Source of the DNA: Patiria pectinifera | Taxonomy: Eukaryota; Echinodermata; Asteroidea; Valvatida; Asterinidae | Reading direction: 5' to 3' | Assembly (NCBI GenBank): GCA_029964075.1 | Contig: CM057142.1 | Location: forward strand, 2,681,770-2,745,769 | DNA: 64,000 bases | Part shown: positions 5,672-47,787 of the stretch, piece by piece | How the letters are laid out: the number at the start of each line of letters is the position of its first letter | Position numbering within the stretch: the first letter of the stretch is position 1 | Notes under the pieces: model-generated | Told to the model about the DNA's origin: nothing | Seen by the model: the letters and a program-made list of their open reading frames with translations, nothing else | Database searches by the model: none | Program-made: the position numbers and the translations under genes

Positions 5672-8600
5672 GTAATGGAATGAAAGCAAAGTTCGAGGAA
5701 GCCGTCAATCTGTACAGGGAAATGACGTGCATCAATTTCGTTGAGGCCCAAGATGGTTACACTGGAGACATCCCACCGCTTAAAGTCAAGGGAAACGGCA
5801 AGGGGTATAAGTCTGGCCAAATTAAGCACATTTTGAACGACAGGAAGTAGACTTATAGCATTGACATGAAATCAGCTTACATCAACCAAATGTGGTGACT
5901 GTGCGACACTCAAAAAGTCTACGGTTTCTGGTATGGAGCTTGCCTCAAAGGTTGTGCGGCGACGCGGCTTTTTTTTTTTTTGGCTTTTTGCAAAGTTGCG
6001 GAAAAGCCTTTGTTTTTGTTCTGAATTTTTTGGCTTTTCCGCATAGTAGCGGAAAGCCTTTCTTTTTGTTAAGATTTTTCTTTCTTCCTCATCTTCTTCT
6101 TCTTCTTTTTGTCGCCCAAACCCTATAGACTTTGTACACGTTTTTTTCTCAACGCCACTTTGTCGTACATCATTCAAAGTCAGCATAGGCATAGACCTTA
6201 TAGCATAGTTGTGTCCCGAAGAGTTACGTCATCGTGACGTCATCGTGGGTCACTTGACATCAGGTTAAAGATTAATAGATTAAATCTTTGGAATTCAATA
6301 TAAGATCAGCCGTGAGACACCCGAACTTGAATTTTTCGGGAATCTATAGAGTAATCCAGGATCTTCATTTTATTTCATGTGAGCAAAATCACGTGACCCT
6401 TCCCTCCGGTCTAAACCGGAAGTAACTCGAATTGCCTTATAATTCAAAATTGGAAAAAGATGTGAACTTGCTTGCAACGATGTTAGTCTGTGGCTAGATT
6501 GTACTTTACGAAAAAACCACCGGTGACGTCATAACGTGTTAGAGCGCCCTCTACGGGCAGGTTGAAAAAAGGGTAAAATGAATTTTCAGTCGATGTCTGT
6601 GACGAAGTTTGCGATAATCGCTTCAAAATTGGTGTATATGATGACCTCAATGCAGACAACACCTGTGTGCGAAAAAAATGGTGACGTCATCAGACCGGAA
6701 GTTATAATGAAAAGACCTTTTTTCCTTTGAAAATTCCTGAAAAATCAACCATAACAGTTTTTATATTAATATTTACTTTAATTGTCGATTTAAGGGTAGG
6801 TCTAAAACATTTCAAAGTATCGAAGCAATAAGCGAACTTGGACATGCCCTGCGCACGCTTAAAACTTCAGGTTGACAATACTCTACTTTAAAACATGCAC
6901 AGGACGTCCACAATGTATATGTACATGCACGTACGTTGTACATACGCACATTCATCGTATGTCAGTCAGCCCGCAGCGCACGTGTTGCTGAGGTCAAATC
7001 CCGACCTTTATCTGCAGGGCTTTGTCACGAATCGGCCGCGAGAGTTCGACAGCTCTGTTTTTACGAACTACACGTTTACAAAAGAAGTAGCGGGTCTCCA
7101 AGATGGTATGCATGGTTGTTGAAAGCGAACGGTTTTTTGTCTGAATAATATGTGGATTCTACGGAAAGCATAAAGTCCTACAAAAATATTATTTACATGA
7201 CTGCACATTGTCAAAAAAAGCATAAAGTCCTACAAAAATAATAAGCGGAAAAGCCCTATGTTCTGTTTTCAAACAGACATAGATCTCTAGTTTTTTTTAC
7301 TTTTTTTCTTCTTCAAATGTCGGCTGATGACTACAAATGGTGTCCGACTAAATTTAGTGCAAAATATATGGGAGTACATAAAAGCCACATACAGCTTTTA
7401 CTCGATCGTAACCCCATCTAAAAACACGTTAAAATTGTGCAGAAGCAGGATTCCAGTCAAACCAGTGAGTTTGGCAGTTTTGAGACATCATCTTACATTG
7501 AAAAAAAAAAAATTCATTTGCCGACGCGCATGGCTACGGCGACGCGCACGCATACCAGAAACCGAAGACTTTTTTTGGCCTTACTTAGTACCACTCACGT
7601 TTTGCAGGTTAAACCAAATATAAAAACATGTTCAGCGTCCTGCATTTTGGGGAAAACAAAAGGAAGGAGGAGGCCTTTTTTCTTCCAAAATGACCGCCCG
7701 ACCCGGCTATTTTTTTTTAAATGGCCACCACTTGGACTCACGAAATGACATACCAGTTTTATCTGGGCTGGATGCAACAGACAAAGAGGCCAAATTGATG
7801 TCACTGTTTAAAATTTATCATTCGGTGTTTTTTTTTGCAATTAAAAAAAGCATACTGCAAATAAATACTGCCAAAAAAGTACCGTCTCTGAAGCGAGTGG
7901 TAGAAACTTCTACACATAGCCGCTCGTTATCCCCTCTGGGTTTGTTTTTATAAATATTACATCGGCACTTTATGCTGAGTTCTGCTTCCAATTTAAGGTG
8001 CTACTCGACAGTAGGCGGTCCAGGCGGAAATCTCAACTTACAGGAAGACCGCTGTGATCACGTGAGTTGCAAATTGTTTGAAGAAAAAGGGAAAAAAGAC
8101 TTTGAAACAACTGCCATGACAACACCAACACTGTCTGAATAATTTACGAGAACAAGTAAGTTTTGTGGTTTCATTTTTTGGATTATTCTAAGATAGAAAC
8201 TGAGTTGCTTGGCAAATGATTGGTATGATAGGGGATCTCTCTTCATTTGCTCCAGCATCATTGCATTAAAAGGAATTGTCCGAAAAGGTGATCACGTGCG
8301 TGATTCAGTTAGCATATTAATTTCGCAGAACGCACATTGAAGGTCGAAGGTTTTAAACCGTTCGTGCAATTCGCTCTGTTCACACTTCCGCCATGGGCAT
8401 GCACAGCCTCGATCTGGCAACTTTACACAATAAATAAAGCCGGCTCAGTGATTCCCGTGTCGGGGTTCAGATCACTGAACCGGCTATTTTTATTATGTAA
8501 AGTTGCCAGATCGAGGCTCTGCATGCCCAGTGACGGAGCGTGAAAAGAGCAAATAGGCGTGGTTCCAATGATGGGAGTTTTAATCTTAATCTTCACTTAT

Positions 8601-11600
8601 TCTTTTCTTGCTTATGTATGTTCAGCTCGGGGTTTGCCTTCACGAAATAGGCCATGCCCTCGGCGTCTACCATGAACAAAGCCGCTCGGATCGCATCAAC
8701 CATGTCACCATCTTCGAGGAGAACATCATGGCAGGATACGGCTCTAACTTCAAGATGGTGGACCGGGAGCTGATTGCCCCGTATGATCTGCAGTCTATCA
8801 TGCATTACGCGAGCAATGTAAGTACATGTACATGCAAAACAATGATTTGGAGACTTTTTCAATCTACCGTGACCAGGTTCGAGCGAGAAGTAGAGTTAAC
8901 CGCAAAGGTCCGGTAACAAGCCCAATCATAACAGTCATTATAAAACACCTCTTGCTTGTTCCTTATCCTGGTTGGCTGAAACGCGGTCACGTGTGACTCT
9001 CTATAATAATATATAATAAGGCTAGTGTATGACACTAGCTAGGCTAGTGTATGACACTTTAATACGTCAGCGTGAACTAGACGCGCGTCGAGACATTGCG
9101 CGCGTAATTTCCAGAGTATAAGTGTCTGATCGGGCATTATATGCCAAGCTCGGGCAAGGACCATTAGTCGACTAGTGGTTGATTTGTGACGTACCTTACG
9201 CCAGCGCACTGATAGCAACGTGCGAACGTCTCTAGTCAAACGCTTGTCAAATGTCATCGAAAAACTTCTGGATCCTGGCTGTCTGCTAGCGTTATGAATG
9301 CGCACGGCTATTGGTTACCAGCGAAGCAACCAACCCCAGTAGGCTGGTTCCAAATAGTCGACTAGCGTAGTCAACCACCGTCGACTAGACAGAGTTCGGG
9401 CAAACGTTAGTTAACCATTGATCAACTATAGTCCTTGCGCGAACTTGGCCATAGTCAACAATTTTTGACTGGTTACAGCGCCCTCTGACAAAATTCAAAC
9501 TCAAACTCATAATAAGTGGCGGCCGCCACATAATAAGTGTCTCACATCCATAGAGGAGAACTGTGATGCATGTTGTGTTGAACAACTTCATTTTGGTGAT
9601 CATTGGTAAGTAGGGGCTTCTCCACAGCTGTTCCAACTTCCAAAAAGTCGTCCAAAGCCAGTGCCTTGCGTCTTTTGAGGTCGGTTGCGCTGGATGCTAC
9701 CATGGATCCCAGATATTTAAAATCAGTCACATGTTTTATTGGACTGCCGTGGACATGAAGTGAGGGGGAAGGCTCACAATGTGACGTAATGTACTCCGTC
9801 TTGGGTACATCAAGTAATATTTGTGAGTCTTGAAAAGATTGACAGATATTGCAAACGCTAGTGTACCAACTTTCAAAAGTGCACGTAGCCAGGCCTATTT
9901 TTCCAATTTCAACGAAAAGTAATGAACACATCACAACGATTTTTAGCACATACTCGAATCATTATGAGGGAAGTAAACCCTGAAAGTTGCATGAAGGTAC
10001 GGTCTTCCAAACGGGAGAAATATATTTTCAAAGATTCTGCCCGCCAATGGTGAACATGTGTGTACGAACATGTAGTTTCATTCAAAATGAAGTATTACGT
10101 AACCTTTAGATTTCGCCCTTGCACGGCAGTTAGCCACGACCAAGATCATGTTTCTATGTTTTTTTGCCCATCGCCCCATCGTACGCACGTTCTTGCTATT
10201 AGTGCCCAGGCGTAGCTTACGTCACACATAGACAACTTTTCAGCAATAATCCTCGATCGACCGTACTCCAAAATGATCGACGGACCTTTTCATCCGTCAG
10301 TCATTAGGAACGGAATTGCCGTGCTGTTTTAAGCGACAATACACCCCTACTAGTTTACGAAATATTTTAGGATATCTTTTTATATTCATGTACAATGTAC
10401 TTCAGTATGCATATCTGCATATTTACATAGGCTTACAGCAAAGATGGCCGCTCGCAAACCATCGTTCCTCACGAACTTTCGGAGGTGGAGAAGATGGGAT
10501 TACAGTGGAGACTTTCCCGACTTGACATCTACAAGTTTAACCTGATGTACGACTGCTACGGTGAGGTCAAAGTACACTGTTCCTTAGTGAAATATAATTG
10601 AAACTCTAATAATAGTTATCTTTGAAACAACAATCCACGGGAACAAATTCTAAGGATGAGACATACCCTCACACGAATTTTGGTCCGTAGGCGGACAATA
10701 ACACCATCCCTAAACAAATATGTATGCGGTATAAATTTATTAACCATTTAAAAAAAAACAAGTTCAGAAAAACGCTCGTTTTTCTAATCTTGACATTCCC
10801 ATTAGTTGTACAGTATAGAATTTCATTTTCGAAATTTCTCGTTCATGTTAAGTTGTTACACCCCAACTATCTGGCAATTCCCAAACTGTAGTTCATGAGA
10901 CGATCACAACGTAGTTTATGTGACGTGACTAGTTGCAACAAACAGTGAGTTGGCATCGTCTGAACTACAGAAAGTTCCTTATATCCCGTAGTTTCGGGGG
11001 TGGCGTATCCAGGTTTTAGGTCCTGAGGAGGCTCAAAATTGGTTGTTTCTTAGAATGTGCCACCATTTCATTTTATTTTTCGTTCGGAACAATGTTTAAA
11101 AGCGGGGGATGCCAAATAATCTTCATCCAGTTTTGTCCCAATTAGAAATGATCAGGTTTTAAGTTCGCAGGTTATATATATTCCCATTAGTTGTACAGTA
11201 TAGAATTTCATTTTCGAAATTTCTCGTTCATGTTAAGTTGTTACACCCCAACTATCTGGCAATTCCCAAACTGTAGTTCATGAGACGATCACAACGTAGT
11301 TTATGTGACGTGACTAGTTGCAACGAGCAGTGAGTTGGCATCGTCTCAACCTATAGAAAGTTCATTATATCCCATAGTTTCGGAACTAGGGTATCAAGGT
11401 TTAAGGTCCCGAGGAGGCTCAAAATAGGTTGTTTCTTAGAATATGCCACCATTTCATTTTGTTTAAACAATGTTTAACAAGCGGGGGAGGCCATCACCAT
11501 TAATATCAGTGATGCAAGGTGGTAGCACCTATCGTGGCATGCACATCGTTCAGATATCGCCGAAGGTTTTCCGCGAAAGATTTCCTAATCATAGATCCAT

Positions 11601-14600
11601 CGGATATTGGACCCCCGTGTTTACCTCTTTAGTTCTTAAGTTCGACTATATACAAGGATTCCAATTTATTGCTCAATAATAATAGCCATGTTTAAAAAGG
11701 AAAAGACGGAACCCATGGAAGTTATAGAGCTTTGTTTGCCCAACTAATTTGTTCCCATAAGAAACATAAGAAAAACAGCACCCTCTATTGACATAGCCAG
11801 AAACATTTCGCACGCAATAGGCTATGTACTTCTTTCATGCTATGCAAGCTTTTTGTCATCATTTCTCATCAGGATGCCAAACATTCTTCATTCAGTTTTG
11901 CCCAATAAGAAATGATCAGGTTTTAAGTTCGCAGGTTATATATTAGCTACATAAATCCATCGGTATGTTGAACCCTAGAACAGAATAGTTTTGTGAACTC
12001 ATTATCTCATGGTAACATCTTTCAGTTCTGCTCCCACAAACTTAGTTGAAAAATCAATTGGCCATCTTATTGGGATGTTTACAGAGTCTACCCCTTTTCA
12101 ATATCAGTGATTTTAAAGAGGGAATATGGCTGATAAGTGGAAAGGTGTGAATAATTTTAAAAGTTGATTATATTTTTGATTCCACTTTAATCAAAAATCC
12201 CTCTTAAAAATGTTTTTTTCGGTATTGTTTTTATTTTCCAGGCTCAATATGGTTTATGGAATCACCAAACGAAGTACGGGTAGTTCGAATACAAATAGTG
12301 GAATCCAAATAAATTAATGTTCTCTTCTTAAAACAAAATATGCAAACGTGGGTCCTTCAACTTGATGAGACTTTTGATGTTTTACAATAACAGTTGGTGG
12401 ACAGTGTCCCAAACAAATACTGTAAACCTGACTCTGCCAGGGCAGTGTAACTTCGTCAATCAATGACACTATTGAAATATTAAACATATTACATGAAAGT
12501 GAAGGAACCAAACAAAATAACCCAATTAATGAAATAAAAAAAAAAAACGATTCAGAAAATAATACCTCTAGCTTTGAACACATCAATTTGGATTGGACAA
12601 AAATACAAAGTTGGGCTCTTATTCCACCACTTCTGAAGACATGTTTTATGCAAAACCATGCTTTTAATACATAATTTTTAACTTGCTTTAGCACCTTCGA
12701 TCGAGTTGAATTTACTCTACAACTTACTGTTGTACTCATAATGTACTGTACTCGATCAGAGTCATGCACTTTTAAACAATCGGATTTTAGACCCCCGTGT
12801 ATCCCCTTTGGTTCTAAACGACACCTATATCAGACGTTTCAACTTATCAGCTATATTCTCTTTTTTAATTCCTCTTCACTGATATTAAAAAGGGGAAACT
12901 CTGTAAATAAATTTTAAAATCCCTTGATGGCCGATTTTTTTTAACTAATTTTTTTTTCAAAACAAAAATTGTGGGAGCAGATGTTACCCTGAAATAAGAG
13001 TTCGCAAAACTATTGTGCTCTAGGGTTTAAAATACCGATCGAGCCAATAAATAACATGCGAACTTAAACCTGATTATTTATATTTGGACATCCGGATGAG
13101 AAATAATGACAAAAAGCATATAGGCCCTTTCATGAAAGAAGTACATAGCCTGCACTCACTGCGTGCAAAATGTTTCTGGCTCTGTCAATAGAGGGAGTTG
13201 TTTTTCTTATGTTTCTTATTGGGACAAAATAGTTCGGCAACCAATGCGCCATAAGTTCCATGGGTTTCATTGTTTTTCCTGTTTAACTTGGCTATTATTA
13301 TTAAACAAGGATCAGGAATCCTTCTATAGGTGAAGTTAAGAACTATAAAGGGGTTACACGGGGGACTAAAATCCGATGGATCTATTTTTATATCCTATTT
13401 CAAAGTCGGGTTGGAAGGAAACTAACAACAATAATGTTGCACTGTTCCTGAGCAAAGACGGAAAAAATGGTTGTTTAATTACGTCTTACGTGCATCCATT
13501 TTGTGGCATACGTAATTCCATGGGGGGGGGCGTCATGTAGATCAATTATAATTTTTTTAGAAACTCAAAATCTCAGTGGGGGGCGACTGGGGGGGGGCAA
13601 GTTTTTTTTTTTTTTAATCCATGTCTATGACGCGCAACGGGTGAATGACCGAAGACCCGATAGACCTATATAGAAAGCGCCTGCTGATCGGTCAAAATCT
13701 AGGAAGTCAAGAGGCGGGTCTTGCCTAATCAATCAGCAAATCTGTTCGAGCATAATAGACCACGGCATTCACCGTGGTCTATTACATAGACTACCACTCA
13801 CCCACACCCCTTCAGACTTACCTTACATACCTACTTTGGACATTCCTTTGTATTCGTGTAGTTAAGAAAAGACGAAAAAAAAAAATCATTTTACTCGCAA
13901 AGTGAACCCTTATTTCAATTTCAACCTAAACTTTTTATAATGATTTCCTTGAGTGTTCCCCTTCATTTCCCTCTTAACCTGTTCCGTTTTCTAGAGCAGG
14001 GGAAACCTAGTGTGGACGTGTGCAAGTTCACAAAGCGTTCACGCTTTGTGGACTTGCACACCCGTGGACCTCTTTTGTTCACAGGTTTACGAAGAGAATG
14101 GAAGGTTAGAGCACATTCTTGTTCCGTAGTTGTGGGGATATACACTCGTCTCTATACGACGTTTTTGTGGGGACCAAAAACGCTGTGGGGACAGCAAGCA
14201 GCCCCCACAAAGCAAGTAGTGCCCACAACTCGGTCCCAATTATCCTAACAATAAGAAACTTCCCCATAACGCGGTGTAGGCCAGGACATAGGTTTGTTTA
14301 GGGTGTAAATCGAGGATTTTCTGTGGCTCCTCGTCGTCGATCTTTTGCTCATACATTTTGGCAACAGCTGTCATTGGTTTTGTACACGTTTTCTTAAATC
14401 GAGGACGTCCTCGATTTAAGTCTTGTCCTCAATTACTCGATGCTTCACACGCGTGTCCTCGATTTACACCATAAACATGCGCACACTGATACTCCATGGG
14501 GTTGGAGCGTAACAAAAATTATTAATTTATCATTGTCGCCATCTTGTCTTACCTCAGACGGTTGCCCAGAGGACCTGAAGGATAAGTGTCAACATGGCGG

Positions 14601-18835: not shown

Positions 18836-18924
18836 CGACTATTTTTCTTCTCTGAACTTATCGTTGAGAAAATGTAATTTTAAGGGAATAAAGAGAACAA
18901 GAACGTAAGCGTCCTGCAATGATT

Positions 18925-19220
18925 GGGGTCCGCTCATAAGTTCGACGCCTCATAGGTCCAACGCCTCATAAGGGCGTCGGACATATGTGGCGTTGGGCCA
19001 TGAGGCATAAATTCCGCCTCTTATGTTCGACGCCGCATAAGTCCGACGCCTCATAGCTCCGACGCCTGATAAGTCCGAAACAGCGTTTGTCCATTGTCGG
19101 ACTTATGAAGCGTCCGACTTAAGAGGCGTCGGACCTATGAGGCGGAATTTACGCCTCTTACGTCCGACGCCTCATATAGGACGTCGGACCTATGAGGCAT
19201 CGGACCTATGATACGGCTCC
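18925..19220. mobile_element. palindromic-satellite MITE with 8-bp TSD, copy 1
   Basis: The element is made of repeated GTCCGACGCCTCATA-type units on the left and their complements on the right, so the whole can fold on itself. It is flanked by an exact 8-bp direct repeat CAATGATT (18917-18924 and 19221-19228). The ends are related inverted repeats beginning GGGGTCCG and GGAGCCGT. An 8-bp duplication is typical of hAT-type transposases (also P elements), so I infer a non-autonomous relative. No transposase is encoded. Confidence 0.85.
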
Positions 19221-22200
19221 CAATGATTCAAAGGATCACTGAATTATGCACGACATTTACGGAAACAAAATTCGCGAGCGGGCATGCAGGCAGTACAGTT
19301 CGTTCACTGATTTGTGGATAATAGTCCAACTTGTAAACAAATCCACGCCCACACACTTAACGCTTCCGCATTGCTTGGCTACGGTTTGCAGTGCACCAAT
19401 TTATACACCTGTGCCTACGGAAGCGGCTAAAGCCACTTCCCATAGAAACTTGTGTATCTGTTAGCCACAGCCCAATCATTTCTAGGATCGACATCGTGCG
19501 TGTGTGTCTTGTCCACAAATCAGTGGTCTAGTCTTGCCTCGAGACGCGATCGGCCCATGGCAGTGACATTGAAAAGAGAACTGAGAAGGGATCAGCAGCC
19601 GATGTAGTCCGGTCAATTTACGTTTTTATTACAAATTGCAATAGAAACCATTCAAGCTTCAATCATTTTCAAATAAATGTACAAACAACATGTGAAAAAT
19701 GTAATTTTTTCTATGCAGTGGAAAGGTGTTTTTTCAAGCACTTTTTGTAGATCAAAATTTGAGTTTTTTACCTGAACTATGGAGGGCGCCTTTTCTTAAT
19801 TCGTCTGGTGACTTTCCTCGATGTACGTACATTGTTACAGCTAATACTCAGGATTTATGACCATATGCGACGGCGGCAGACGACGCACCGACGGTAACTT
19901 GGAAAAGTATCATTTCACGTGATACTGAGTTTATTTTTGCTGTCTAAACGTATTAAGAGTTAATTGTATATTGAAAGCCGTATTGTGTGTGATTTGATTA
20001 ATATTTAGGCCTTTGAATGGAATATTATCCGTTCTTAATCAGAAATTCACACCGTTGCAAGGCCGGGCAGCTAGTAATGTGCATGTAAAGGCGCACGTAT
20101 GGCTATATAGATGAATACACGAACTGCTTGCTTGTTAAGAGAAAATTTAAGGTATGCCATTGATACAACGTAGGGCTAACGGCCGGGAAGCGCGGGAAGA
20201 TTCACTTATTAGTGTCAGGGCAGGCCAAAGTGTCCAAACTGAATTTCACTGCAAGAACTGCAATCCGATTTGTGTAAAGAACGCTTCAATAAATGATGAG
20301 AGGGGATCAAGTGACTGCCGCGTGTTCAAGTCTGACAGCGCTGATGCCAGTTCAATCCAGCACCTGGCCAGGGAGCTGCTTGTAGTAACCCAATGTAGTT
20401 GCATGATGGGATGCAACACATGGTGACAAAACAAGGCTTGGAGTGTTCCTCAGAATGTGCAGGCTTCGAATCATAGGTAGCTGTTCCAATGTGACATTTA
20501 CTGATGAGGATGGACTTGAAGGATCAACTGAAGTTTGAACAAAATCGCGCAGAGCAACACGTCGCCAACACCTTAATTGAATTTTACATATGTACACCCT
20601 AATTTTAAATTATATGTAGAAAACTGAAATGATAGTCATCAACACTTTGATTTTTTTTTCTATGGAGCAAACTTTTTAGGGTTTGTTCCCCCCCCCCCAA
20701 GAAAGAGACCAAACTTGGGAAGCAACGCAAGTTAAAAAGCAACGCTTTAAATTTCATTCCTCTACAAGATTTGTTCCTGAGGGGTAAACTTTGAAGATTT
20801 GCTCTCTTTTTTTCTTCTCTTTTTTTTTCGCTGTAAAAACAACAAGTTGCAACAGTTGACATTTTATTTCTCTAAAAGGTTTTTTTTTTCTTTGGGCCAA
20901 GTTTAAATTTTCATTTCGTTTAAAGTTCTTCCCTGAGGAGCAAACTTTGCAGAGTTGTTCATTTTATCTTTTCGTTTTGCTGTACAAAACTGGGGAACAA
21001 GATAATAAATTGTAACATCTTTATTTTTATTCAAAGCCTACATTTACCATTTCTTAAGATCATTTTATTATTACTATATCAATACTGAAAAAATTTGAAC
21101 TCAATGATTTTTTTTACATTGTCTTTCTTCTGTTAAATTACATTTCTCGAAATGTTTTCTATTCGGCGAACGTTTCACTGCTCGATTAACATGATTTAAG
21201 CCAATGTTATTTATCTTTCTTCGGCTTTTAAGGTCAAGGGTGGCCCCGGGTGACGCCAACGGGGTCAATGGCCACCACAAAACCAACTTTTAAGTGACGC
21301 AGGCAGGCGCTGCGTAGGCCTACACCACCATCTTTTAATTAAAATATAATGTCAAAGTGGTAAGAACTTGCCTCAGATCGCACCACAGAGCATCCGTTTC
21401 ATTGTTTTGTTTTGTTGTGTTTTGTCTTTTGAATTTAGTCTTCCTTTTTCAGTATTGTTTGTATATATTTTTTTTATTTTTTTGTTGTGTTTAAGGCATT
21501 CCGTTTATAAGCTTCGGCTTTTTGTGTAATGCCTCCGCTTAGTAGTTTTCATGTAACAATTGTTTTGTTTTCTAAAGTGCTTATTCATGTGGAAATAAAT
21601 GTTTCTGAAATGAAATGAAATGAAATCTAGAATCCAACAATTTTTTGGGCTCCTTGAGCGGGCCCCGAACCACACGCCGCAATTTTTGGGACCCACTTTT
21701 TGGGGCTAACAATTTTGTTGCCTCCCAAAAACAATTTGTTCTGGATCCGCCCTTGAGTGTTTAAACTTAAAAAAATTTCTATCAACTGTAGGTTTTGCCG
21801 ATCACCTTAACTTCTCTACGAATTCTAGATTTCAGATTACCCACCCCCCAACAAACAATTTTTTTTTATAAAATAAATAGATAAATAGCTAGAAGAAATA
21901 AGTAAGATTGATCCATGATCTCTATTTATTATAGGCCTATAGAGATCAATGACTGCATCCCATGTCAAAGTTATCAATGATTTACTGAGCCGATATACTG
22001 GCGAACTTTTGTCAATTGGTGGCTAACAATTACGGAAGTAAAAGAAAATCCAAATTCTTATTTAAAGATATAATAATTCCCTATGGTTTGCGCGGTAACA
22101 TTCCGCCGGCAAGGTAAAATCCCAGAGATTTCAGAAATATCGACATGAAAAAGCCGTCTGTTGTGAATCAGTCGTGTTTCCCGACGTTTCCTGCGTGTTG

Positions 22201-22751
22201 TGAAAGGACGTTCTGACGGGCAACAGACGCTGACAGCGTAAAACATGGCACCGTCCAAACGACAGTTTACGCGTTGAGGAGTTGCGAAAAATCAGTCAAG
22301 AAAAGGCGAGTAAAAACACCTTTCCACTCCCTAGATTAAATTAGATTTTCAGTATGTTAATCAGTGATTTTTTCTTCGTGTGAGAGTGTTAAAATAAATT
22401 CTATTGCAATTTGTTCTGGGTCAAGGCCTGTTTTGTCATAATTGACCGGACTGCTGTTATCGCGCTGATGAACTGCACACGTACACGTAAGCTAATCGAC
22501 ACAGGTTGAAGTTCACAGCGTTGTATTGTATACTACATGTACGTACTTGCTAGCGCTTTACAGCCAATATGACTTTGCCTTCGTGTTCATACATGTTTAC
22601 CGGCGGCTGGCCGGGTTGGTACGAGTTCATGTAATATTAGTTGTGATATGAGTTGTTGCCCAATCACATTGTGAACACAGTGAAATTCGTCGTCGCGTCG
22701 TTACGTTCCGTTCGTCGACATTAACACTGACATTTCTGAAATCAATTCGAA
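19221..22751. other. intergenic region before PARP1, with diverged foldback arms
   Basis: 19600-19735 and 22306-22455 are inverted relatives (shared GTCCGGTCAATT, AAATTGCAATAGAA and GTGGAAAGGTGTTTTT), possibly the ends of a foldback about 2.9 kb long. 19306-19320 and 19508-19525 form a shorter inverted pair around CACTGATTTGTGGA. Nothing resembling a complete gene was seen. The last few hundred bases must contain the PARP1 promoter; no TATA box is evident. Confidence 0.45.
21405..21630 (+). mobile_element. LINE 3' tail with short tandem terminus
   Basis: A 3'-UTR-like segment ending GGAAATAAATGTTTCTGAAA and then tandem TGAAA units at about 21606-21628. This tail layout resembles CR1/L2-type LINE 3' ends. 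No coding part remains. Confidence 0.4.
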
Positions 22752-25700
22752 ATGGCAGAGTCCGAACTTCCATTCGCTGCTAAATATGCCAGGCATGACA
22801 GTTATACATGCAGAGCTCACGACTGCTGTGAATTTATATACCAAGATGATCTCTGTCTGTCTGCAACGGCGCAGGTGAGGGAACACGATTTTTTTTTAAA
22901 ATTAATTAATTTTCTGGTGTGGTTTAAGGTGTCCATGCCTGAACGTGTGCACATCGCTCTTATCTAATTAGCCATGGAGGAACTGGAAAAATTGTTGCAA
23001 CCTGACGCCACTTGTTTTGTTCATATATCATCTTAATGAAGTTCATTCATTGCAAAAAGAACGATAAGACATGAATCTGGGAAAACATTTCCAATTGTGT
23101 TAGGAAATACTTTCAAATGGCTCTCCATAGGCGTCAGGTTGCAACAGGAATTTATTCATCCATGTGATGTATATCTGTATATCTGTATCATAGTCGGCAA
23201 ACTGGCAAAGCATCCAAGGGGAACCATCACACCAACTTAGAGAGAAGACAATGAGAAGAAATAATTCACATAAGTGACCCAGGCGGGAATCGAACCCGGG
23301 TCACTGATAACTTTTATAAGCCAGACTTGTTTGTGCCAAGCAATTTTTGTGCTTAGCAGCGCCGTAAAATTGCGCCCAGCTGCAGCAGGCATATGTACGT
23401 TTCGAATAAACCATTTCTCAAAATGGCGAAATTGCGGCACATATTTCGCACGAGCGGCGCGCGGCACAGTCACATACGTGAATTTGACGCCAAAAGACCG
23501 GAGCATTGAAACCAAAACATTGCCGTCATGGCCCAAGAAATCGGAAGGAATTACCATTCCGGTCAGAGTATGCCAAAAGCAACAGAGCCGTGTCGAATCC
23601 CACGGATGTCATTCATCATGGTCGACCGGTCATCGTGGTGCACAGGGACATGCACTTTAACATTATATTCTCCCAAGTCCCAACTAACTTATTAATTTGT
23701 CGGTGACCTTCAGACCAATTCAGTTTAATTGGTTCTGAATACCTCAATGAACATTCTGTGCAAATCTTGTAAAAGTCAGAAAACATCCAGGCCCATGCTA
23801 AACGCCAAGTAGGCCGTGCGCGAAAGCCTGTAACGCGCAATCTCGTCTTAAAGATATAGTCCATCATTAATTTGTGCATTTTGTTCGTTTGAAGCAACAA
23901 AAGTGTTCAAAATCTAAAGAAGGGTACTGAACAACTAACCTGATGAAGTTTCAGCTCAGCTTCAGCTGTATATTCCGAGAAAAACAGCATTCTGGGATCT
24001 TAATTTCAGCGTCCGAGACACGTTCTCACTGAGCCGATTGCAGCTTGGCGATGTCGCGCACTGATCCGACGAATTATAGCAACCGCGCGCTCGTGTGCGT
24101 CGTGTCAACGCTTGCGCGCGCTTCGCCGAATAAAAAAAACCGAACTACTAACGGAAATTTAGAAATGGAGGGAAAAATAGTGTCACTTATTTACTTGAAA
24201 CTGACTGACTTGTGATTTACTTGTGATTGATTTGTGCTGTAAAGGGACGATAGAGGTACGTATAGAAATCCTTATAACGCCACGTCGAAATCTTATCATG
24301 CTCATGTTTGAAAGGATCGATTCTACCAAAAAGAAACTTTAAGCAAATAATGAATTTTTAAACTCATGCCGATTTCCTATCTACTTGTTGTGTCAAATTT
24401 GACAACAATTGAACTTAAAACATAGAAATTATGGTAAAAATATTATTTTTGACCAAAAAAGGTGGAAAAAATGTCGCCATGAGGCTAATTATGCAATTTG
24501 GGCCAATGTGAAAAACGGTTAACAACCAGATTCAGATTCAATACTATCGAATTAGTAAAGTTTACCTTATTGCAAATTGACATCAGAAAGGTAAGACGAA
24601 CCTCAACTTCCAGACCTGATACGGAATTTAGCCCATGGCCTAAAGGGGTCAGGAGTCCAAAAGTTTTTTGTCAGGAAATTGGACATCGGGATTATAACGG
24701 ATACATTTTTGTTTTCTTTTTAATACATTTGTAGTATCCATTGGGAGGCGTGGGGAACAACTGGTATCACTTTGACTGTTTCTGGAAGGTGGTGGGAGGC
24801 GAGGTGAAATCTACTGATGATATAGGTAAGACCTATAGGGTAGACTTGGCCCAAGTCTGGGTTGCGCTCAGTCTGTGCCTATAGTAAATCCACGTAAATT
24901 GGCACCTGACAATAAAGCGCTTCAATTTTTCGATAAAATAACACCACAGGCATGTGTGTACGTGCATAGTTGTTTATTTTCTAAAATTCAAACCAGTGAA
25001 AAGCTATTGGCGTAATCGCTTCATCATGATCGAATATTCAAATTGGTATATCCTGGACTTAAGTCCAATTTGTAGCACTAGACAACAGAAACAAACTACC
25101 ATGTAAAAAGTTCTTCCATAAAGAGGACATTTCAAATTACCGCTCGATGCATCAATTTTTTTTTTAATTTTGGCCACAGAGTTTCACACTAGACACTTCT
25201 GGGGATTGATGCAGGGTTGAAAACATGCACATTTCACACTTAAGAATGTTCAACCCTGCACCAATCCTGAGATTGATTTCACCCTGGTTTGAACACAACC
25301 CTGCTCCAGACCAGGGTTGAGAGCTTCACCCTGAATTCAAGCTCTCGCCTTGATTCAAAACAGTAGTAAACCGAGCAAAATAAGCTCGGTTTGGACGAAA
25401 CAAGTGTGAAACGATGCGGGGTTGAAAAAAATCAACCCGGGGCGGCACGGCGTGGCACTGGGTTTTCCAAGGGATGAGTTCAACCCGGGGTTGAGAGGCT
25501 CTCGTGTGAAAAGGCCTTAATGGCTCTAACCAAATTGTTTATTGCTATTTGCCTGTAGCCAACTTTGACGACCTGCGCTGGGATGATCAGGAGAAGATCA
25601 GAGGTTGTATCAGTACCGGCGGGACCACAAAGGACAAAGTAACCTTTCTACGAGCCTTTGACGTGGAGTACGCCAGGTCCAACAGAAGCAGCTGTCGTGG

Positions 25701-28700
25701 ATGTCGAAACAAAATTGACAAGGTAATTACTGAATACTGATGTGTCCATTGAATCTTTAGTCTGGTACGTTGTCATGCTAGTACAGGTTTGCCTCGGCAG
25801 AATTAAACAAATGCTTGCAGATTTGTAGGTTGTGGATGCCCACAAAAGTGACAAGTTAGAAAGAAACCTTACTTTGAATTAGTGTCTGTTCGTATTTTGT
25901 TATTTATTTTATTAATTTATTTGTTTTGTTGTTGGTACAGAACGATTACATTGACTACTGGTATGCCGATATGTCTCTTGTTGTTTCACAGTCTGAAATT
26001 GTCATGGTTTTTATCAACCCCCAGCTATCCTTGCACGTGCAAACTCAATCTTTTCATTAACCAGTTTGTGCCGGATGACGTGTATGCCTGTAAAGGCTGT
26101 TTGGTATTCGGAACGGATGACGGATAAACACGCAGGGGAAGAGGACGGAAATAGAGGATGAGGGTTTCAACCCGGTTAGCATTTGGTCGAGTGAAAAGTA
26201 TTCCCACGCCTTGTACCGTTCTTGTCCAAATAATCCCGGTGCAAACTGGTTACAAGAATTCACTGCCAACAAATTCTGATGGAGACACGCTCGCATGGGT
26301 GGTTATACACGTTTTGATTGCTGTCAAATGGGTGATGTGCCATGCTAGCTGTGTCAAATGCATGTAGTTAAAACATATACAAGAGGCTTGTTATTTTTGG
26401 TTTGTACGTGTATCCTACCAACATTGCAATTGTTTTATCAGTAATGCCTTGTAGTATACTTCTGTTTTGTTGGGTGCCTTCCTGAATTAACCTACTCCTA
26501 CGTGTCTTTTACTAAAGTACTGGACCAAGTCTGCCAAAATCCATCACTTGCCCTGCTTCACATAATGCTTCTGGACTAAATCCGCTGAAATCTACCACAA
26601 GACCACCATTACTAGAGGTGTATTTTGATGGACTTGGTACTCATGGCTTTCTTACCAAAATCCCCAAAATGGGGGGGAGTGGATTTTGATGGACTTGGGA
26701 AGGTAATAAGGATAAAGGAGTCGAGACTTGACTATCGTCAATTTGCAATCATATTTCAGGATAAGGTACGCGTCGGTTTTACTTGGTATGGTATAACGCC
26801 CGGAGGTGAAGCCTGTAGTAATGTTATGTGGTACCATCCAGACTGCTTTTTCATGCCGGGAGTCCTTGCTGAGGTTGGGTGGAAGGACGCGTATTCTGTC
26901 GAAATGATCTTCGGATTCGAGCAGCTGCAGCCGAAAGATCGGAAAACTTTGACAGAGAAGTTCCAAGCGTACGTCATTATATGCAGCAGTTTTGAGATTT
27001 AGATTGAAAAAGGACTGTGGGCTCCGTGGATAACTTTATACTCGGTGGTTTTATGCAAGGGCGTAGCCAGCAGGGGTGGGGGAGGGGGGAGTTAAGGGGA
27101 GTGTTTACCCCCCCCCCCCCCAATATTTTGCTTAGAATGCCCTTTTTCCATTCAAATGCCCTTTTTTGACCACTGCTTACCTCCCTCCATATTGTTTTTA
27201 AAGAGTGCCCTTTTTTAAGAAGTGCCCTTTTAAAAAAGAAGTGGTGCCCTTTCTGTGCTACATGTCCTTCCGGGCGCCTTTTTTTAATTTAACGCCTGTA
27301 ACGCCCTGAAAAGCACCATATAATGTCCGTTAGTGTGTATAATCGTCCGTTTTGAACACCGCCCCACTGGACAGATGGTACAAGCCCCCTCCGGTTTGAT
27401 TTTACGGAGGCCAAGTGTCCGGAGGGGAAAAAAACTTGTCTACATTTCACCACAGATGATGTGCAAGTGCCCTTTTAAAAATCCCCCCCTCCATAAACGA
27501 CCGTGCTACGCCACTGTTATGTTACAAAAAACAACAACAACTGTGCCATAGCTGTCAAATTTTACCGCGTTTAGATATGTCTGAAATGTCACTGTTCCTA
27601 AGATGAAGATTTTTTATGATTCATACAGAAAACAAAAGGCTAAAGTATCAGTTAATGAACCTGATGCTAAAAAAAGCCCAAAGGAGTCGACGAGGAAAAA
27701 GAAAAGCTCAAGGTGAGTTTGGTTAGAGATAACCACTAACCACATGCAGATGGGTTCAGACAAAATACATAGGCCATCAGCTTGAGGGTTTGGTCGGTAT
27801 CATATTTTTGGCAATGTATTTACCTCTGCGGTTGGAAAATAAGGTGAAAGCATTGAAGCGGTGGCAGCTTTTTGGGTGCTATCACTTAAAAAAATGGCGG
27901 CCAAAACATGCTAATACCATATACAAATAATCCGGTAAGAAATATATTGACGGCCACTTTGAAAACATTTATTTTATGATGATGACACCCAAAGAACTGC
28001 CACCGGTGACACTGCAAATTAAAATATCACACATTTCCCAAATCTAGATGTGCATACCTTGCCAAAAATCGCTACGAGCATTGCTCCTTTCGATCATTAG
28101 ATACCGGTCGCCTGGTCTTTGGACCGAAGCTGATAGCATAGTACTTCTGATTGCAATGTACCAATGTTGACGTCGAAAACATTGTTGCCACTTGTTGCTC
28201 AATGCTAGCAAAAAAAGCTCCCCTAAACACTTTTCAAAACTATTAGGAGAATAGAAGCAACAATATCTTGTGTTTGTTTCAAAGAGTATAACATTCGAAA
28301 AACATCATTTCAGCTTTAGTTTTATTCGTTTCATTGAATTTTGAGAAATGCTACATGCTTCGCACTGGATAAGGTGTTCACATGCTATTTTTTAGCGGTA
28401 TTCGTAACGGATAACGGATAAAAACACGCTACGATTGAGGCCGGAAATATCTGTCAGCGGCCCGCTTGCAGCGAGCAAAACCGATAATATGAGTGTGCAT
28501 GCCCGAGGGTAATGGCTTCAACCCGCCTGGCTTGAGGTTGAGTGAGAAATAATCCCGCGCTTCGTTCCGTTCTTGTCAAAATAATCCTGGCGCGAACTGA
28601 TTAAAGGAAACTATTCTGAGTTTTCTCTACATTGAATACAAGTTGCTCTCTCCAATTCAAGTTTTACCGCGTTTAAAAATGTCTAAAATATCACTGTTTT

Positions 28701-29621
28701 CAAGATTCAATTCAATTTCAATTTATTTATTCTCATCATGTAAAAACAAGATGAAGATTTATTTTTATGATTCATCAGGAAACAAAAGGCCAAAGAATCA
28801 GTTGATGAACCTGCTGCTAAAAAAAGCCCAAAGGAGTCGACGAGGAAAAAGAAAAGCTCAAGGTGAGTTTGGTCACAAATTACCACTTACCACATGCAGA
28901 TGAGTTCAGACGAAATTAACAGTATAGGCTATCAGCTTGGGGGTTTGGTCGGTATCAAATTAGGGGAATAATGCTCGTTGTGATTTTTGGCACGTGAACG
29001 GATGACGGATAAACACGCAACGATCTAGGCCGGAAATATATGTCAGCGACCTGCTTGCAGCGAACGAAGCCGGAAATTTTGACAGTGCATGCCCGGCCGA
29101 TGGTGATGGCTTCAACCATCTTGGCTTGAGGTGGAGCAAAAAGTAATCCTGCGCTTCATTCCGTTCTTGTCAAAATAATCCCGGCGTGAACTGATTTAAG
29201 GAAACTATTCTTTAAGAATAGAACCATTGGTATAAACTCGACGTTCCGGTCAGTATGCTCTGACCGTCTTCAGGAGTCGGTCTGAGCATACTGACCGGAA
29301 CGTCGAGTTTATACCTCTGGCTCTTTTCAGAACCATTCTCTTAGTTGAGAAATTATGCACACATGGTGTTTCCGCAAACCTTTCATTTTTTAGTATCTCC
29401 ACCATGCAAAACCTCAAATCTTACTTAGTTTTCTCTACATTGACTAAAGTTGCTTTCTCCATTTCAAGTTTTACCATGTATACAAATGTTTAAAATGTCA
29501 CTGTTCCTGAGATGAAGTTTTTTTATGATTCATATGCAGCAAGCGAAAGGCCAAACAATCAGTTGATGAACCTGATGCTAAAAAAACCAAAGTGGTCGAC
29601 GAGGAAAAAGAATAGCTCTAG
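22752..29621 (+). CDS. PARP1: PARP1-type poly(ADP-ribose) polymerase, 5' exons only
   Basis: The nuclear enzyme that senses DNA breaks and builds poly(ADP-ribose). Visible exons: 22752-22874, 24735-24825, 25559-25722, 26760-26968 and 27629-27712, with two further copies of the last at 28779-28862 and 29540-29621. The start is the ATG of MAESELPF, matching the MAES start of vertebrate PARP1. Zinc finger 1 spans exons 1-2, with WYHFDCFW supplying the His and Cys. Zinc finger 2 is canonical: CRGC, then WYHPDCFF. The loop FDDLRWDDQEKI matches the family. After exon 4 comes the lysine-rich linker where PARP1 carries its nuclear localisation signal. Zinc finger 3, BRCT, WGR and catalytic exons were not found downstream, so they lie beyond the window or the locus is a partial copy. 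Finger 1 reads TCRAHDCC in place of the usual CxxC. Confidence 0.88.
22875..24734. other. PARP1 intron 1
   Basis: Contains a tRNA-derived SINE remnant (about 23236-23330, minus strand). No exon-like segment besides the flanking ones was seen. Confidence 0.5.
23236..23330 (-). mobile_element. tRNA-like SINE fragment
   Basis: The minus strand reads GACCCGGGTTCGATTCCCGC, a perfect B box/T-arm, followed by GGGTCACTTATGTG. No anticodon or acceptor stem can be formed upstream, so it is a SINE remnant and not a tRNA gene. Confidence 0.55.
25178..25516. repeat. MITE-like element in PARP1 intron 2
   Basis: The left end GGCCACAGAGTTTCACAC and right end CTCGTGTGAAAAGGCC form an imperfect terminal inverted repeat. 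The interior repeats CAACCCTG/CAACCCGGG modules on both strands. It ends about 40 bp before exon 3. Class uncertain. Confidence 0.55.
26105..26265 (+). repeat. dispersed repeat (three copies inside PARP1)
   Basis: The block ACGGATGACGGATAAACACG ... CCGTTCTTGTCCAAATAATC recurs at 28405-28620 and 28994-29215. All copies share orientation and sit in introns of the same gene. The two downstream copies separate the duplicated linker exons. Confidence 0.7.
27058..27516. repeat. MITE-like element with GGCGTAGCC/GCTACGCC ends
   Basis: The ends GGCGTAGCC and GCTACGCC are inverted, and the interior carries G/C runs and multiple GTGCCCTTTT modules. A close relative lies at 55337-55862, sharing the GCACCATATAATGTCCGTTA-type and TTTTGAACACCGCCCC-type blocks. 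It lies between PARP1 exons 4 and 5. Confidence 0.65.
27772..28138. repeat. MITE with GGCCATCAGC ends, copy in PARP1
   Basis: Terminal inverted repeats GGCCATCAGCTTGAGGGTTT... and ...GGACCGAAGCTGATAGC, flanked by TA on both sides. Other copies: 29686-30038 (complete), 28926-28992 (truncated) and 47368-47636. A TA target suggests the Tc1/mariner-like group; no transposase is present. Confidence 0.7.
28779..28862 (+). CDS. PARP1: duplicated PARP1 linker exon, copy B
   Basis: 84 bp, the same length as copy A at 27629-27712 and differing from it at only a few bases. It has its own AG acceptor and GTGAGT donor. Being a multiple of three with the same phase, it can be spliced in after copy A or in place of it without breaking frame. 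It reads KQKAKESVDEPAAKKSPKE followed by a run of basic residues. The upstream 65 bp of intron are duplicated as well, but copy B has gained an AT-rich insertion at about 28709-28748. Confidence 0.75.
29235..29400. mobile_element. solo terminal unit of the Penelope-like element
   Basis: Two inverted copies of GTATAAACTCGACGTTCCGG face each other with almost nothing between. The right side continues with TCTCTTAGTTGAGAAATTAT, TGGTGTTTCCGCAAACC and AGTATCTCCACCATGCAAA, the flank seen at 51396-51500. So this is the terminal part of the 50.0-51.5 kb element without its coding region. Confidence 0.8.
29540..29621 (+). pseudogene. PARP1: duplicated PARP1 linker exon, copy C (frame-broken)
   Basis: 82 bp against 84 bp in copies A and B, so it shifts frame. 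In the phase used by copies A and B it reads KRKAKQSVDEPDAKKTKVVD and then reaches TAG within the exon. The KRK...KK spacing looks more like the known PARP1 bipartite nuclear signal than copies A or B do. Splice sites are intact (TGCAG acceptor, GTGAGT donor). Use of this exon would truncate the protein before zinc finger 3, so it is either decayed or an alternative terminator. Confidence 0.65.
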
Positions 29622-29685
29622 GTGAGTTTGTTTACAAATTACCACTTGCCACATGCAGATGAGTTCAGACGAATATAACAGTATA

Positions 29686-30038
29686 GGCCATCAGCTTGGG
29701 GGTTTGGTCGGTATCAAATGAGAGAAAAATGTTCGTTGTGATTTTTGGCAATGTACCGTATGCACCTCTGTAGTTGGAAAATATGTGAAAGCATTGCAGC
29801 GGTAGCAGCTTTTTTGGGTGCTAGCTCCTAAAAAAAAAATGGCGGCCAAAACATGCTAATACCACATAGAAATAATCCTGTAAGAAACATATTGACGGCC
29901 ATTTTGAGAAAAAAAAAAGTAATTAAAAGCACATTTTTCAACTCTAGATGTGCATACCTTGCCAAAAATGGCAACGAGTATTGCTCCTTTCGTTCATTTG
30001 ATACCCATGGCCCGGTCTTTGGACCGAAGCTAATAGCA
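29686..30038. repeat. MITE with GGCCATCAGC ends, second PARP1 copy
   Basis: Same family as 27772-28138, at the same distance downstream of a linker-exon copy and with the same right flank (GTACTTCTGATTGCAATGTA). This shows the element was present before the exon unit was duplicated. Confidence 0.7.
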
Positions 30039-30059
30039 TAGTACTTCTGATTGCAATGT

Positions 30060-31504
30060 ACCAGAACAAACATCAGTGTGCAAAACTTCTCTTAAAGCTT
30101 TCCGAAATTATTAAAGTTTTTTATCAACAAAACAATATTGACTGTCAAAGTTTAATTGATTATCTGGCCGCTTCTTGCTGGCACTGGTGTTTAGCTTGGC
30201 CAACTATTCACTGAGCAGTGTTTGGCATTTGAAGAATCTGAACTTCGAAGCAATGGCTCATCAAAGTGCCCGCTGTTTGTTCAGTGTATTACCATAAAAT
30301 AATAATGTTCAGGCAGTGTTGGACTTTCAGTTTTACAGGCCAAGAAACCAATATACTGTGTTTACGATAACACCCTTAACGTATGAAAGAAAACTATATT
30401 TCAAAAAAAAATGTCTATCAGTCTTTTATGATTACTTTATTTACTTTATGTAACTTAAACGGTAGCCTGTTGAATTACTTGGTTAAGATTAGAGTTATTT
30501 GACCAAGATTTGATTGGTCATATAGGCCTAAGCCCTAGGCTTCAATTCGACCCTCAATTACAAGCAAGGTACAAGCAAGAATTAACCTGTTTTTTTATTT
30601 ATTTAAACCTCCTGAGGTCTGAACATTTACAGACATTCAAAAAATCAATCCTCTTTCCCTGCCATGCCTTTTACACAGGCTGGTCACCAGCAGTCAGATC
30701 ATCAGTTCAAGCAATCACTGTTACTAGTCAAATTCAATCAAAAGACAATAGCAGGCAAGTTGTGGGCACAACTGGCTTATCAATTACCCCCAGTCAAATC
30801 ATAACTGCATCAAGTTACATAAACAGTCACAGCCAGTCAATTTTGCTTTATAACTGTCAGTCACTCGATTGATTTTGACTGAAAGAACAACTTAGCACAG
30901 AATGTATGTTTACATAGGAGGATTAACGAATAACGCACACAAACAACTTTCACAGGGACAAAACTTTCTTTTCAATATATACCTTATTTAAAGCTTTCGT
31001 AAACATGGCAATAAAAAGTTTGTGGTTAGAAATTTGGCCTGAAAAAATACTGATAGGTCGGGCTTTTACTGTAAGCACAAAAATAATTGTTGGGGTGTCT
31101 AATATCGACCTTTGCCGTTTACACTCGGAAGGGCACACTTTATTAACCCTTACCATGAAGATACAAAGGCGATAGAAAGTGAACATCTTCTTTCACCTGT
31201 AACTCTTGAACAAAGTAATCGATCTTGTTCATACAATGTAATCAGATAGACCATTAATTGATAAATATTTTTGTCGTGTACGTGAACTCACTTGACCTTT
31301 ACTTCCGGGTCTACCGGAAGGTCAGCGTTAGGTGAAATTAAATTACAGACAGAAGCCTCAAAATCAAAACGAACCACCTTTCTTCCAAACGGTTCACGTG
31401 ATGACGATAAAACCTAGATGGAACTTGAACCCTGGTCCGAAGATGTGAAAAATATTGTTGACGTCATCATGACGTCATCGGGTCACACGTTCAACACAAA
31501 TCGC
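30060..31504. other. no recognisable exon; dispersed repeat at 31200-31450
   Basis: 31200-31450 is an inverted relative of 63150-63420 (TGACCTTTACTTCCGGGTCT and neighbours). The remainder gives nothing that I recognise as PARP1 zinc finger 3 or another gene. Confidence 0.45.
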
Positions 31505-32190
31505 AATTAAATGTGACCATGCAGTAAATCCAAGATTAAGATTGATTTTGATCTTCTTAATCGCGTTGCTTTGACCGCCAGGTACTGTGATGATGAACTG
31601 AAGGTGTCACCAAAGACTCCAACACAAACCTGGCCTTGATGAAGTTCAAGAGCGACTCCATGTACAACTACAAAGGATTTGATATCAAGTATCGTTGTGA
31701 ATAAATCCACCACATCAGGCAAAACTTGGCTGGCAGTCAAGAGCGTTGATTCTAGTGTACAATTCGATTGAGAAAAACAGATACTCTAGATAGGAAAGAA
31801 TTAAGCTTTTAGTTTAGTGTCTAGTTGCTTTTAGTTTATTGTCTAGGTGCGAAGGGTTAATTAAGCACACTTTAATCGGCATCGCTAATATTAGAAGCGA
31901 GCAAAAAATGAGTCACAGTGACTCTATACTTTCAACTATACTTCTGATTCTGAACAGCGAAGGGAAAAATAGAGTTAATCTGTATGTAGACAACGTGTGG
32001 GGGACTGGAGGCAAGAGAAAAGCTTGGGGCAAATCCCCCGAGCGCCGCCACTTGGCACAGGTCCAAATAAAACTTAAAACTCTCTTTTTACATTGTAGTA
32101 TTACTTTTTGCGATGTTTTCACCCGGCGAATGGCCGCGATTCCAAACTTATACGTCCTATTAGAAAAAGAAGTTCCTTCCATTTCAAGTA
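31505..32190 (+). pseudogene. duplicated terminal astacin exon with intron and 3' flank
   Basis: A copy of 16290-16940 in the same orientation, 15 kb away. It includes the end of the last intron (TTGCTTTGACCGCCAG acceptor), the CUB-encoding exon from about 31582 to 31702 and the 3' flank. Because intron sequence is retained it arose by DNA duplication and not by retroposition. One A is missing from the GAACTGAAAGG stretch of the exon, so the CUB frame is broken, although the downstream YRC(E) and TAA are still visible. Confidence 0.88.
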
Positions 32191-32639
32191 CAGATTCTTC
32201 GGTCGAAAACTATGCAAGCCTTGTAAAGAAGTGATAAACTGCGTGAGTTTTAACAGAACAATGTATTAGAACATTAAGGGAAAACTAAATGTTTTTTGTT
32301 AGTGGAAGCGAATCTGGACCCATTTACTTCAATCTTGCTTAACCATTAAAAAAATGTATTCATCCGCTTCAATTTGAGCTGATGAAATAAATAATAGGCC
32401 CGGCCAATAAAATTGTGGAAGTATTGATTAATGAAATTGATAATAGCATTGCGGGATTTAGCATCTTAGCTTTGCCTGCTAACTATAGGTTCCCCGGCCA
32501 TTTTCACCAAGTTTTCATTAAATTTAACGCTTGGTTAAAGATAAAGATTTGTAATAAAACTTCAAAAACAAGTAAGAGGGCTTGGGCGGGCGATCGCACA
32601 ATACTAAAAATACAGTTACATGTATTGTTTAAAAAGATG

Positions 32640-33360
32640 CGTCTTCAAGACTTTCTTGAATGTTGTTAGAGAGTCGGCACTACGTATGAAATCCGACAAA
32701 TTGTTCCATAAGCTGGTGCTGCATGCTGAAATGCTCGTTGACCGTAGAAACCAGTGGATGCATGAGCAAGAGTAGCCAAGAGATTCCTTGATGTAGATCG
32801 TAGCTGACGCAGAGGCCTATACTCTTGCAGCAGATCTGCAATGCTTAACCTGCTGCCATTCCATACAGGCCCTTGTAGGTCAAGAGACGGTAGTTGTCTG
32901 AATGGGGTCCGCTAATAAGTCCGACGCCTCATAGGTCCGACGCCTCATAAATCCAACAAAATCGTATCCCCTAACCAAATAAAGGCCCATAAGTCCGACG
33001 CCTCATAGGTCCGACGCCTCATAAGTCCGACGCCTCATAGCTCCGACGCCTCATAGCTCCGACGCCTCGTAAGTCCGACAAATTAAACGTCTCGTTTTTC
33101 CGTTGTCGAACTTATGAGGCGTCGGACTTATGAGGCGTCGGACCTATGAGGCGGAATAAAATGTTATGCCTCATAAGTCCGACGCCTCATTACTCCGAAA
33201 TTTCGGACTTATGAGGCGTCGGACCTATGAGGCGTCGGACTTATGATACGGCCCCGTATGAATGGCAGCCAATGAAATGCTTGCGTAGTTGGTGAAATGT
33301 GTTGATAGCGAGGTGTGCGTGCAACAGGCCGGGCTGCACTGTTTTGTACACGCTGAAGCT
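32640..33360 (-). mobile_element. LINE C-terminal fragment, split by an insertion
   Basis: The minus strand reads FHWLPFR on one side of the 32904-33255 element and, on the other side, DLLQEYRPLRQLRSTSRN, then GFYGQRAFQHAAPAYG. HWLP and Y-x-P-x-R-x-LRS motifs are hallmarks of the C-terminal region of CR1/L2-like LINE ORF2. Frameshifts are present. Confidence 0.75.
32904..33255. mobile_element. palindromic-satellite MITE with 8-bp TSD, copy 2
   Basis: Built like 18925-19220 from GTCCGACGCCTCATA-type units, left-half forward and right-half reversed. It is bordered by GTCTGAAT (32896-32903) and GTATGAAT (33256-33263), a 7-of-8 match. It has landed inside the HWLP-encoding stretch of an older LINE; removing it with one target copy restores a continuous LINE reading at that site. 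Confidence 0.88.
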
Positions 33361-38041: not shown

Positions 38042-38542
38042 TTGTTAAAGAGGTTGTGGAATGCTCGAAGACATTTCCATCATTTTTGGGGTATATGTAG
38101 CCTAAGGTGTGATGAAATAAAAACGACTATTGTTTCTGTCATGAAATGAGTACAAAGGGTACTTTTGAGAGCTATTTTTCAGGTCCTGTTTCGACCCGAA
38201 CGTGCAATTTGTGAAAAGTCGTCGTTGCGGGTAGCAAACAAAACACAGTAAATCGTGACGTTATAAACAGGACTCGTTTATGCTACTCTGCATCGGGAGT
38301 CCTGTTTATTACGTCACGATTTACTGTGTTTTGTTTGCTGCCCGCAACGACGACTTTTACACAAATTGCACATTCGGGTCGAAACAGGCATGACAGGACT
38401 TGAAAAACAGCTCTCAAAAGTACCTTTTGTATTCATTTTATGACAGAAACAATAATCGTTTTTATTTTATCACACCTTAGGATACATATACCCGAAAAAT
38501 GACGGAGAAATGTCTTCGAGCATTCCACAACCTCTTTCACAA
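38042..38542. repeat. 500-bp near-perfect palindrome
   Basis: Left arm 38042-38274, 23-nt loop, right arm 38298-38542. The arms are well above 90 percent identical, with a few small indels (for example an extra CATGCC-type insertion in the right arm). The centre carries AAACAGGACT/AGTCCTGTTT. No TSD was identified and there is no ORF of interest. Confidence 0.85.
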
Positions 38543-47636: not shown

Positions 47637-47787
47637 TAATGACTACTGCAGCAACAGGACAACATTATCAAAAACAACATCATGAATAAAAATATTTTGC
47701 TTTGTTATTCAACCGGTGTCCTCATGGAAGTCGATCAGCGTTGATTCTAGTACATAGATTCAAACAATGCATTGTTGTCTTCCTCGG

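Follow-up and report, generated by a model that had tools for sequence, protein, structure and literature searches.

Two related foldback elements with arms of a 16-bp unit, probably non-autonomous DNA transposons, in a 64-kb window of the Patiria pectinifera genome

We analysed a stretch of 64,000 bases from contig CM057142.1 of the Patiria pectinifera assembly GCA_029964075.1 (the window; GC 0.41, observed to expected CpG ratio 0.89). Two short palindromic elements in it, elements 1 and 2, are very probably non-autonomous foldback DNA transposons of the size of miniature inverted-repeat transposable elements (MITEs), with arms that would be arrays of putative transposase-binding units and with movement in trans. 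The window holds two copies of the family, 296 and 352 bp long and in the same orientation. As in MITEs, both are short and without coding capacity (no stop-to-stop open reading frame, ORF, of at least 120 amino acids overlaps either of them), have constant ends and are bordered by target-site duplications. They also have inverted arms over most of the element, tandem unit arrays in these arms and duplications within the 7-10 bp range (8/8 and 7/8 positions matching), all of which are features of foldback elements. The original prediction had given the coordinates of both copies exactly, and its proposal of a transposon with 8-bp target-site duplications is supported (Table 1).

The symmetry of the elements is clear from two kinds of evidence. 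Aligned with its own reverse complement, element 1 scores 224 and element 2 scores 256, against best scores of 0 and -24, respectively, in 200 letter shuffles each. Single-stranded DNA folding gave z values of -12.8 for element 1 (equalled by 0/200 shuffles) and -21.4 for element 2 (0/100), so that the palindromic symmetry described earlier is confirmed by alignment as well as by folding.

The repeat unit is 16 bp long and consists of GTCCGACGCCTCATA and one variable base. It covers 85% of element 1 and 77% of element 2, whereas the best of 15 shuffles of each reached 37% and 27%. When up to three mismatches are allowed, the 15-bp core has 23 matches in the window, and all of them, including 11 exact ones, fall within elements 1 and 2; the seven matches outside are scattered, each with four mismatches, and no long head-to-tail array of the unit, of the satellite type, was found outside the elements in the 64 kb. 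In element 1 each arm is built of a forward, a reverse and a forward block, mirrored in the other arm, and a GGCGGAATTTA-type spacer occurs in both arms. The right arm of element 2 has the same reverse-forward-reverse layout, and its left arm is two forward blocks split by 30 nt of non-unit sequence. Unit-free spacers of 17 nt (element 1) and 25 nt (element 2) lie in the middle. Thus, the array fills most of each element, as had been predicted, but "almost only" short unit was too strong a description in view of the coverage, and a simple forward-then-reverse order does not describe the blocks, which alternate and are interrupted by the unit-free spacers.

Table 1. Positions of the two related elements, their ends and duplications, and of a second kind of foldback element in the window (F, forward; R, reverse orientation of the unit)
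Feature	Positions	Strand	Remarks
Element 1, foldback MITE-like	18925-19220	+	296 bp; unit coverage 85%; F-R-F / R-F-R
Left target-site duplication, element 1, CAATGATT	18917-18924	+	flank match 8/8
Right target-site duplication, element 1, CAATGATT	19221-19228	+	flank match 8/8
Left tip, element 1, GGGGTCCGCTCATAAG	18925-18940	+	unit-like, 4 bp missing
Right tip, element 1, reverse complement GGAGCCGTATCATAGG	19205-19220	-	tip alignment
Element 2, foldback MITE-like, same family as element 1	32904-33255	+	352 bp; unit coverage 77%; F-spacer-F / R-F-R
Left target-site duplication, element 2, GTCTGAAT	32896-32903	+	flank match 7/8
Right target-site duplication, element 2, GTATGAAT	33256-33263	+	flank match 7/8
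Left tip, element 2, GGGGTCCGCTAATAAG	32904-32919	+	tip alignment
Right tip, element 2, reverse complement GGGGCCGTATCATAAG	33240-33255	-	tip alignment
Second foldback element	48581-49114	.	tips TACGGAAGYGTATTTAGGACATG; 21-bp unit body TATTTCGCCCGGGCGGATTAC; duplication CGATTG at 48575-48580 / 49115-49120

Both copies begin with the same left tip, GGGGTCCGCTMATAAG, and end with the same right tip (reverse complement GGRGCCGTATCATARG), giving the end pattern GGGGTCCG / CGGMYCC; the left and right tips are unlike each other, and each is retained in both copies. The ends were placed by the duplication strings and not independently of them. A flank match of 8/8 at a spacing of 296 occurs at 4 of 63,688 window positions, element 1 itself among them, and one of at least 7/8 at a spacing of 352 occurs at 70 of 63,632. 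When the ends were scanned, a 7-bp duplication tied with the 8-bp one in element 1, and in element 2 the 9- and 10-bp readings outranked it because in the right flank the repeat is followed by GG, which is also how the element starts. The 8-bp duplication is the reading common to both copies. Beyond the ends the flanks of the two elements are alike at 10/30 and 11/30 positions, with no cross-match, and within the window the 300-base flanks of both elements match themselves alone, so no paralogous empty site was found there.

The two copies are alike beyond their units. Of the 292 columns in their alignment, 249 (85%) are identical, as are 44 of the first 47 bp. The middle spacer is shared (0.35% of 2000 shuffles were as good), and when all four spacers of element 2 were shuffled, 7/500 reached the observed score. 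Since the non-unit spacers are shared, it is likely that the composite descended as one block and not as two local expansions of an array.

The tips themselves align to the unit with a gap of about 4 bp. Shuffles as good numbered 0 and 1 for the left tips and 0 and 58 for the right tips, each out of 2000, values that are generous because the register between tip and unit was chosen after inspection. The tips thus lend some support to the idea that the array may have arisen by repetition of the tip sequence, and the earlier suggestion that the body had grown from the terminal repeat stands in so far as the tips are unit-like with about 4 bp missing, with a less good alignment for the right tips. 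The alignments agree with an origin by tip repetition as suggested for Tetris of Drosophila virilis, in which the arm repeat perhaps came from the tip (a 37-bp stretch is about 80% similar to the outer domain; PMC4079207).

The arrangement can be read as follows. Each arm would consist of a transposon tip followed by the array of 16-bp units, with a short centre separating the two opposed arms. On the assumption that a transposase supplied in trans binds the unit, a ladder of binding sites would have formed as the tip was repeated, and slippage, unequal exchange or gap repair could have made this ladder longer. The whole block would then have been mobile as one cut-and-paste element with an 8-bp staggered cut. 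Arm repeats of foldback elements are thought to hold secondary transposase-binding sites, as reported for one Galileo (PMC3573991), and according to the Hermes paper subterminal repeats are bound by the Hermes transposase.

Several points weigh against the interpretation of elements 1 and 2 as mobile foldback transposons with ladders of binding sites. The same Hermes paper considers it unlikely that extra transposases bound inside the ends contribute to transposition in cells, and it emphasises that the exact phasing between repeats matters; this speaks against a simple ladder in which more sites mean more movement, at least for Hermes. The copies in the window are only two, the duplication of element 2 is imperfect (7/8), and the end position of each copy, taken singly, is ambiguous by 1-2 bp. 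The homology test over all spacers is modest (the 7/500 above); the middle spacers were selected by inspection. Finally, no transposase domain was detected among the 20 ORFs scanned with Pfam, out of 501 stop-to-stop ORFs of at least 50 amino acids in the window.

A transposase of the Merlin/IS1016 type (GG ends, 8-bp duplication) would fit the ends best, ahead of hAT, and is a plausible if tentative candidate: both elements have inverted repeats starting with GG and duplications within the 8-9 bp range. Nevertheless, the lean of the tips towards Merlin is a lead only, with no transposase found; DDE_Tnp_IS1595 was absent from the scanned ORFs. The original prediction had favoured hAT-like mobilisation, which would make the elements hAT-type MITEs and the array a set of hAT subterminal repeats. 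This was not specifically supported and we regard it as unlikely. Both copies have the 8-bp duplication of hAT, and hAT ends do have subterminal repeats, which are bound by BED domains. However, hAT tips usually begin with CA or TA, which weighs against hAT here, where the tips begin with GGGG/GGAG. The target sites are divided: that of element 2 fits nTnnnnAn, the Hermes target motif (PMC2803484), whereas that of element 1, CAATGATT, misfits it on both strands.

Phantom/Mutator and P together are also unlikely sources, and foldback elements of the Phantom/Mutator type like Tm1, taken by themselves, are improbable. Tm1 is the closest published plan, with asymmetric tips, short-unit arms and 8-10-bp duplications, 9 bp being the commonest (PMC3169594); against it, 8 bp is the best common reading of the duplication in our two copies, the unit resembles Motif C of Tm1 no better than chance (495/1000 shuffles were as good), and no transposase was seen among the scanned ORFs. 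Least probable is that the copies are dispersed satellite arrays, expanded and inverted in place and flanked by direct repeats by chance. The body is indeed mostly a 16-bp tandem unit. Yet both copies stop at shared left and right tips, are flanked by 8-bp repeats and have spacers in common, and the window holds no further match to the unit at three mismatches or fewer.

Similar designs are known from several groups of transposons. In TU of sea urchin and FB of Drosophila, the inverted repeats are long and their outer domain is made of short tandem units, and TU makes an 8-bp duplication; the arms of TU and FB are longer than in elements 1 and 2. Zisupton was considered because it makes 8-bp duplications, as elements 1 and 2 do. 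Foldbacks in sea urchin and Drosophila are also named in PMC4079207. Tm1, a Mutator/Foldback family of root-knot nematodes, has nearly the same plan as elements 1 and 2: arms of 13-15-bp units in variable number (1-9 per arm), asymmetric tips of 7 bp, duplications of 8-10 bp in 45/53 elements, and MITE-like forms that average 431 bp (PMC3169594). The Tm1 unit is, however, unrelated in sequence, its duplications are most often 9 bp, it has a separate terminal motif where elements 1 and 2 have unit-like tips, and one putative autonomous copy of it is known (PMC3169594). Tetris is likewise a non-autonomous foldback with tandem repeats in the arms and 8-10-bp duplications, but its unit is about 220 bp, its arms reach 1,735 bp and its repeat also occurs in longer satellite arrays (PMC4079207). 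Galileo of Drosophila (P superfamily) shares the long, internally repetitive inverted repeats and the arms-only copies, and differs in its 7-bp duplications, repeats of about 210 bp and known transposase (PMC3573991). In Merlin, all families are described as starting with GG and making 8-9-bp duplications (PMC8101967), and ISApl4 of the IS1016 group has the ends GGGGCTGTACTAGA and 8-bp repeats; tandem repeats occur inside Merlin copies of Symbiodinium (163-bp units and a 12-bp repeat), and these are not described as arms in the parts of the reports compared here (PMC8101967, PMC12561309). In Xenopus, the Xmix MITE and Xstir are described as a case in which a MITE's inverted repeat gave rise to tandem repeats (PMC9659126). 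The foldback architecture of elements 1 and 2 is thus already published and they are not a new kind of transposon. The contrast with usual MITEs drawn in the original prediction holds for textbook MITEs but leaves foldback transposons out of account, in which, as in Tm1 and Tetris, repeated units are arrayed in the arms (PMC3169594, PMC4079207).

A second foldback element, unrelated in sequence to elements 1 and 2, lies elsewhere in the window (Table 1). It is 81% self-complementary over 548 columns, and its 21-bp unit is mostly in one orientation to about 48900 and in the other beyond, a pattern that is a preference only, the unit itself being nearly palindromic. The CGATTG duplication is exact (6/6), as at 26 of 63,454 positions at that spacing. 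Ends of the form TAYGG..CCRTA occur at two places at that spacing, with matching flanks only here (TACGG..CCGTA). A possible alternative to this exact 6-bp reading is an 8-bp duplication (7/8, as at 45 of 63,452 positions), obtained when each end is read 1 bp further in. Ends TAYGG..CCRTA and 6-bp duplications are characteristic of IS3EU, a rule that the element follows; in contrast, the described IS3EU families are fungal and carry genes, and short-unit arms are not mentioned in the available parts of their description (PMC12730594). A minisatellite of 51/105 bp at 47776-48483 adjoins the element.

Elements 1 and 2 and the element at 48581-49114 have hallmarks of different superfamilies, yet share a palindromic body of short units. 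It is conceivable, though rather doubtful, that elements 1 and 2, which from tip to tip would be nearly all putative transposase-recognition unit, with shortened units as tips, represent a limiting form of the foldback design, and that a short-unit palindromic body arises repeatedly in this host regardless of the transposase, as the second, IS3EU-like element of the same design might indicate. Otherwise, elements 1 and 2 are ordinary foldback transposons. If the unit is a transposase-binding site, natural copies with differing unit number could serve as a dose series for relating the number of sites to mobility. The elements would also illustrate how the tip of a transposon can seed minisatellite DNA, and two unrelated elements of such design in one window raise the question of why the host makes them. 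The 16-bp unit was found at 0 loci in bacterial, archaeal and viral contigs, and the right tip and the tip of the element at 48581-49114 at 0 loci in viral contigs, results that are uninformative on the host. The unit and tip strings had no match in literature text, a result of little weight since main texts rarely give such sequences.

Among the other contents of the window, Pfam matches above the curated cut-off were reverse transcriptase (three ORFs), GIY-YIG, MFS and sugar transporter (one ORF) and C-type lectin; below the cut-off were a fourth reverse transcriptase, zf-PARP and weak FlbD, HNF_C and Nckap1 matches. The GC content, the CpG ratio and the genes (MFS, C-type lectin, LINE fragments) are suggestive of an animal genome. 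GIY-YIG and the sub-threshold reverse transcriptase lie in one reading frame at 50324-51337, which we take to be Penelope-like. This frame is bracketed by a 145-bp inverted pair, 99% identical, at 49993-50137 and 51334-51478. Rfam gave two tRNA matches in the window, none of them inside elements 1 and 2; there is one in each member of an inverted repeat pair at 51610-51950 and 54066-54423 (82% identical), which are possibly tRNA genes or tRNA-derived short interspersed nuclear elements.

Further inverted repeats were observed. The palindrome at 8369-8554 is 81% self-complementary, with no duplication in the scan, and that at 38042-38542 (501 bp) is 87% self-complementary over 514 columns, its end scan likewise giving no duplication. 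The inverted repeats at 11591-13385 are about 560 bp long (73% across 600 columns) and occur with a nested shorter inverted pair; at the ends there is only a weak direct repeat of 8 bp, with one mismatch. The palindrome at 29216-29328, 87% self-complementary, is bordered by direct repeats of 9 bp that differ at one position (AACTATTCT/AACCATTCT). An inverted-repeat element of 2 kb at 59930-61959, with no transposase domain in the four ORFs scanned, has arms roughly 200-220 bp long, an internal tandem array of a 22-bp unit and an exact 9-bp duplication, GCGTTTTAT, as at 3 of 61,952 positions.

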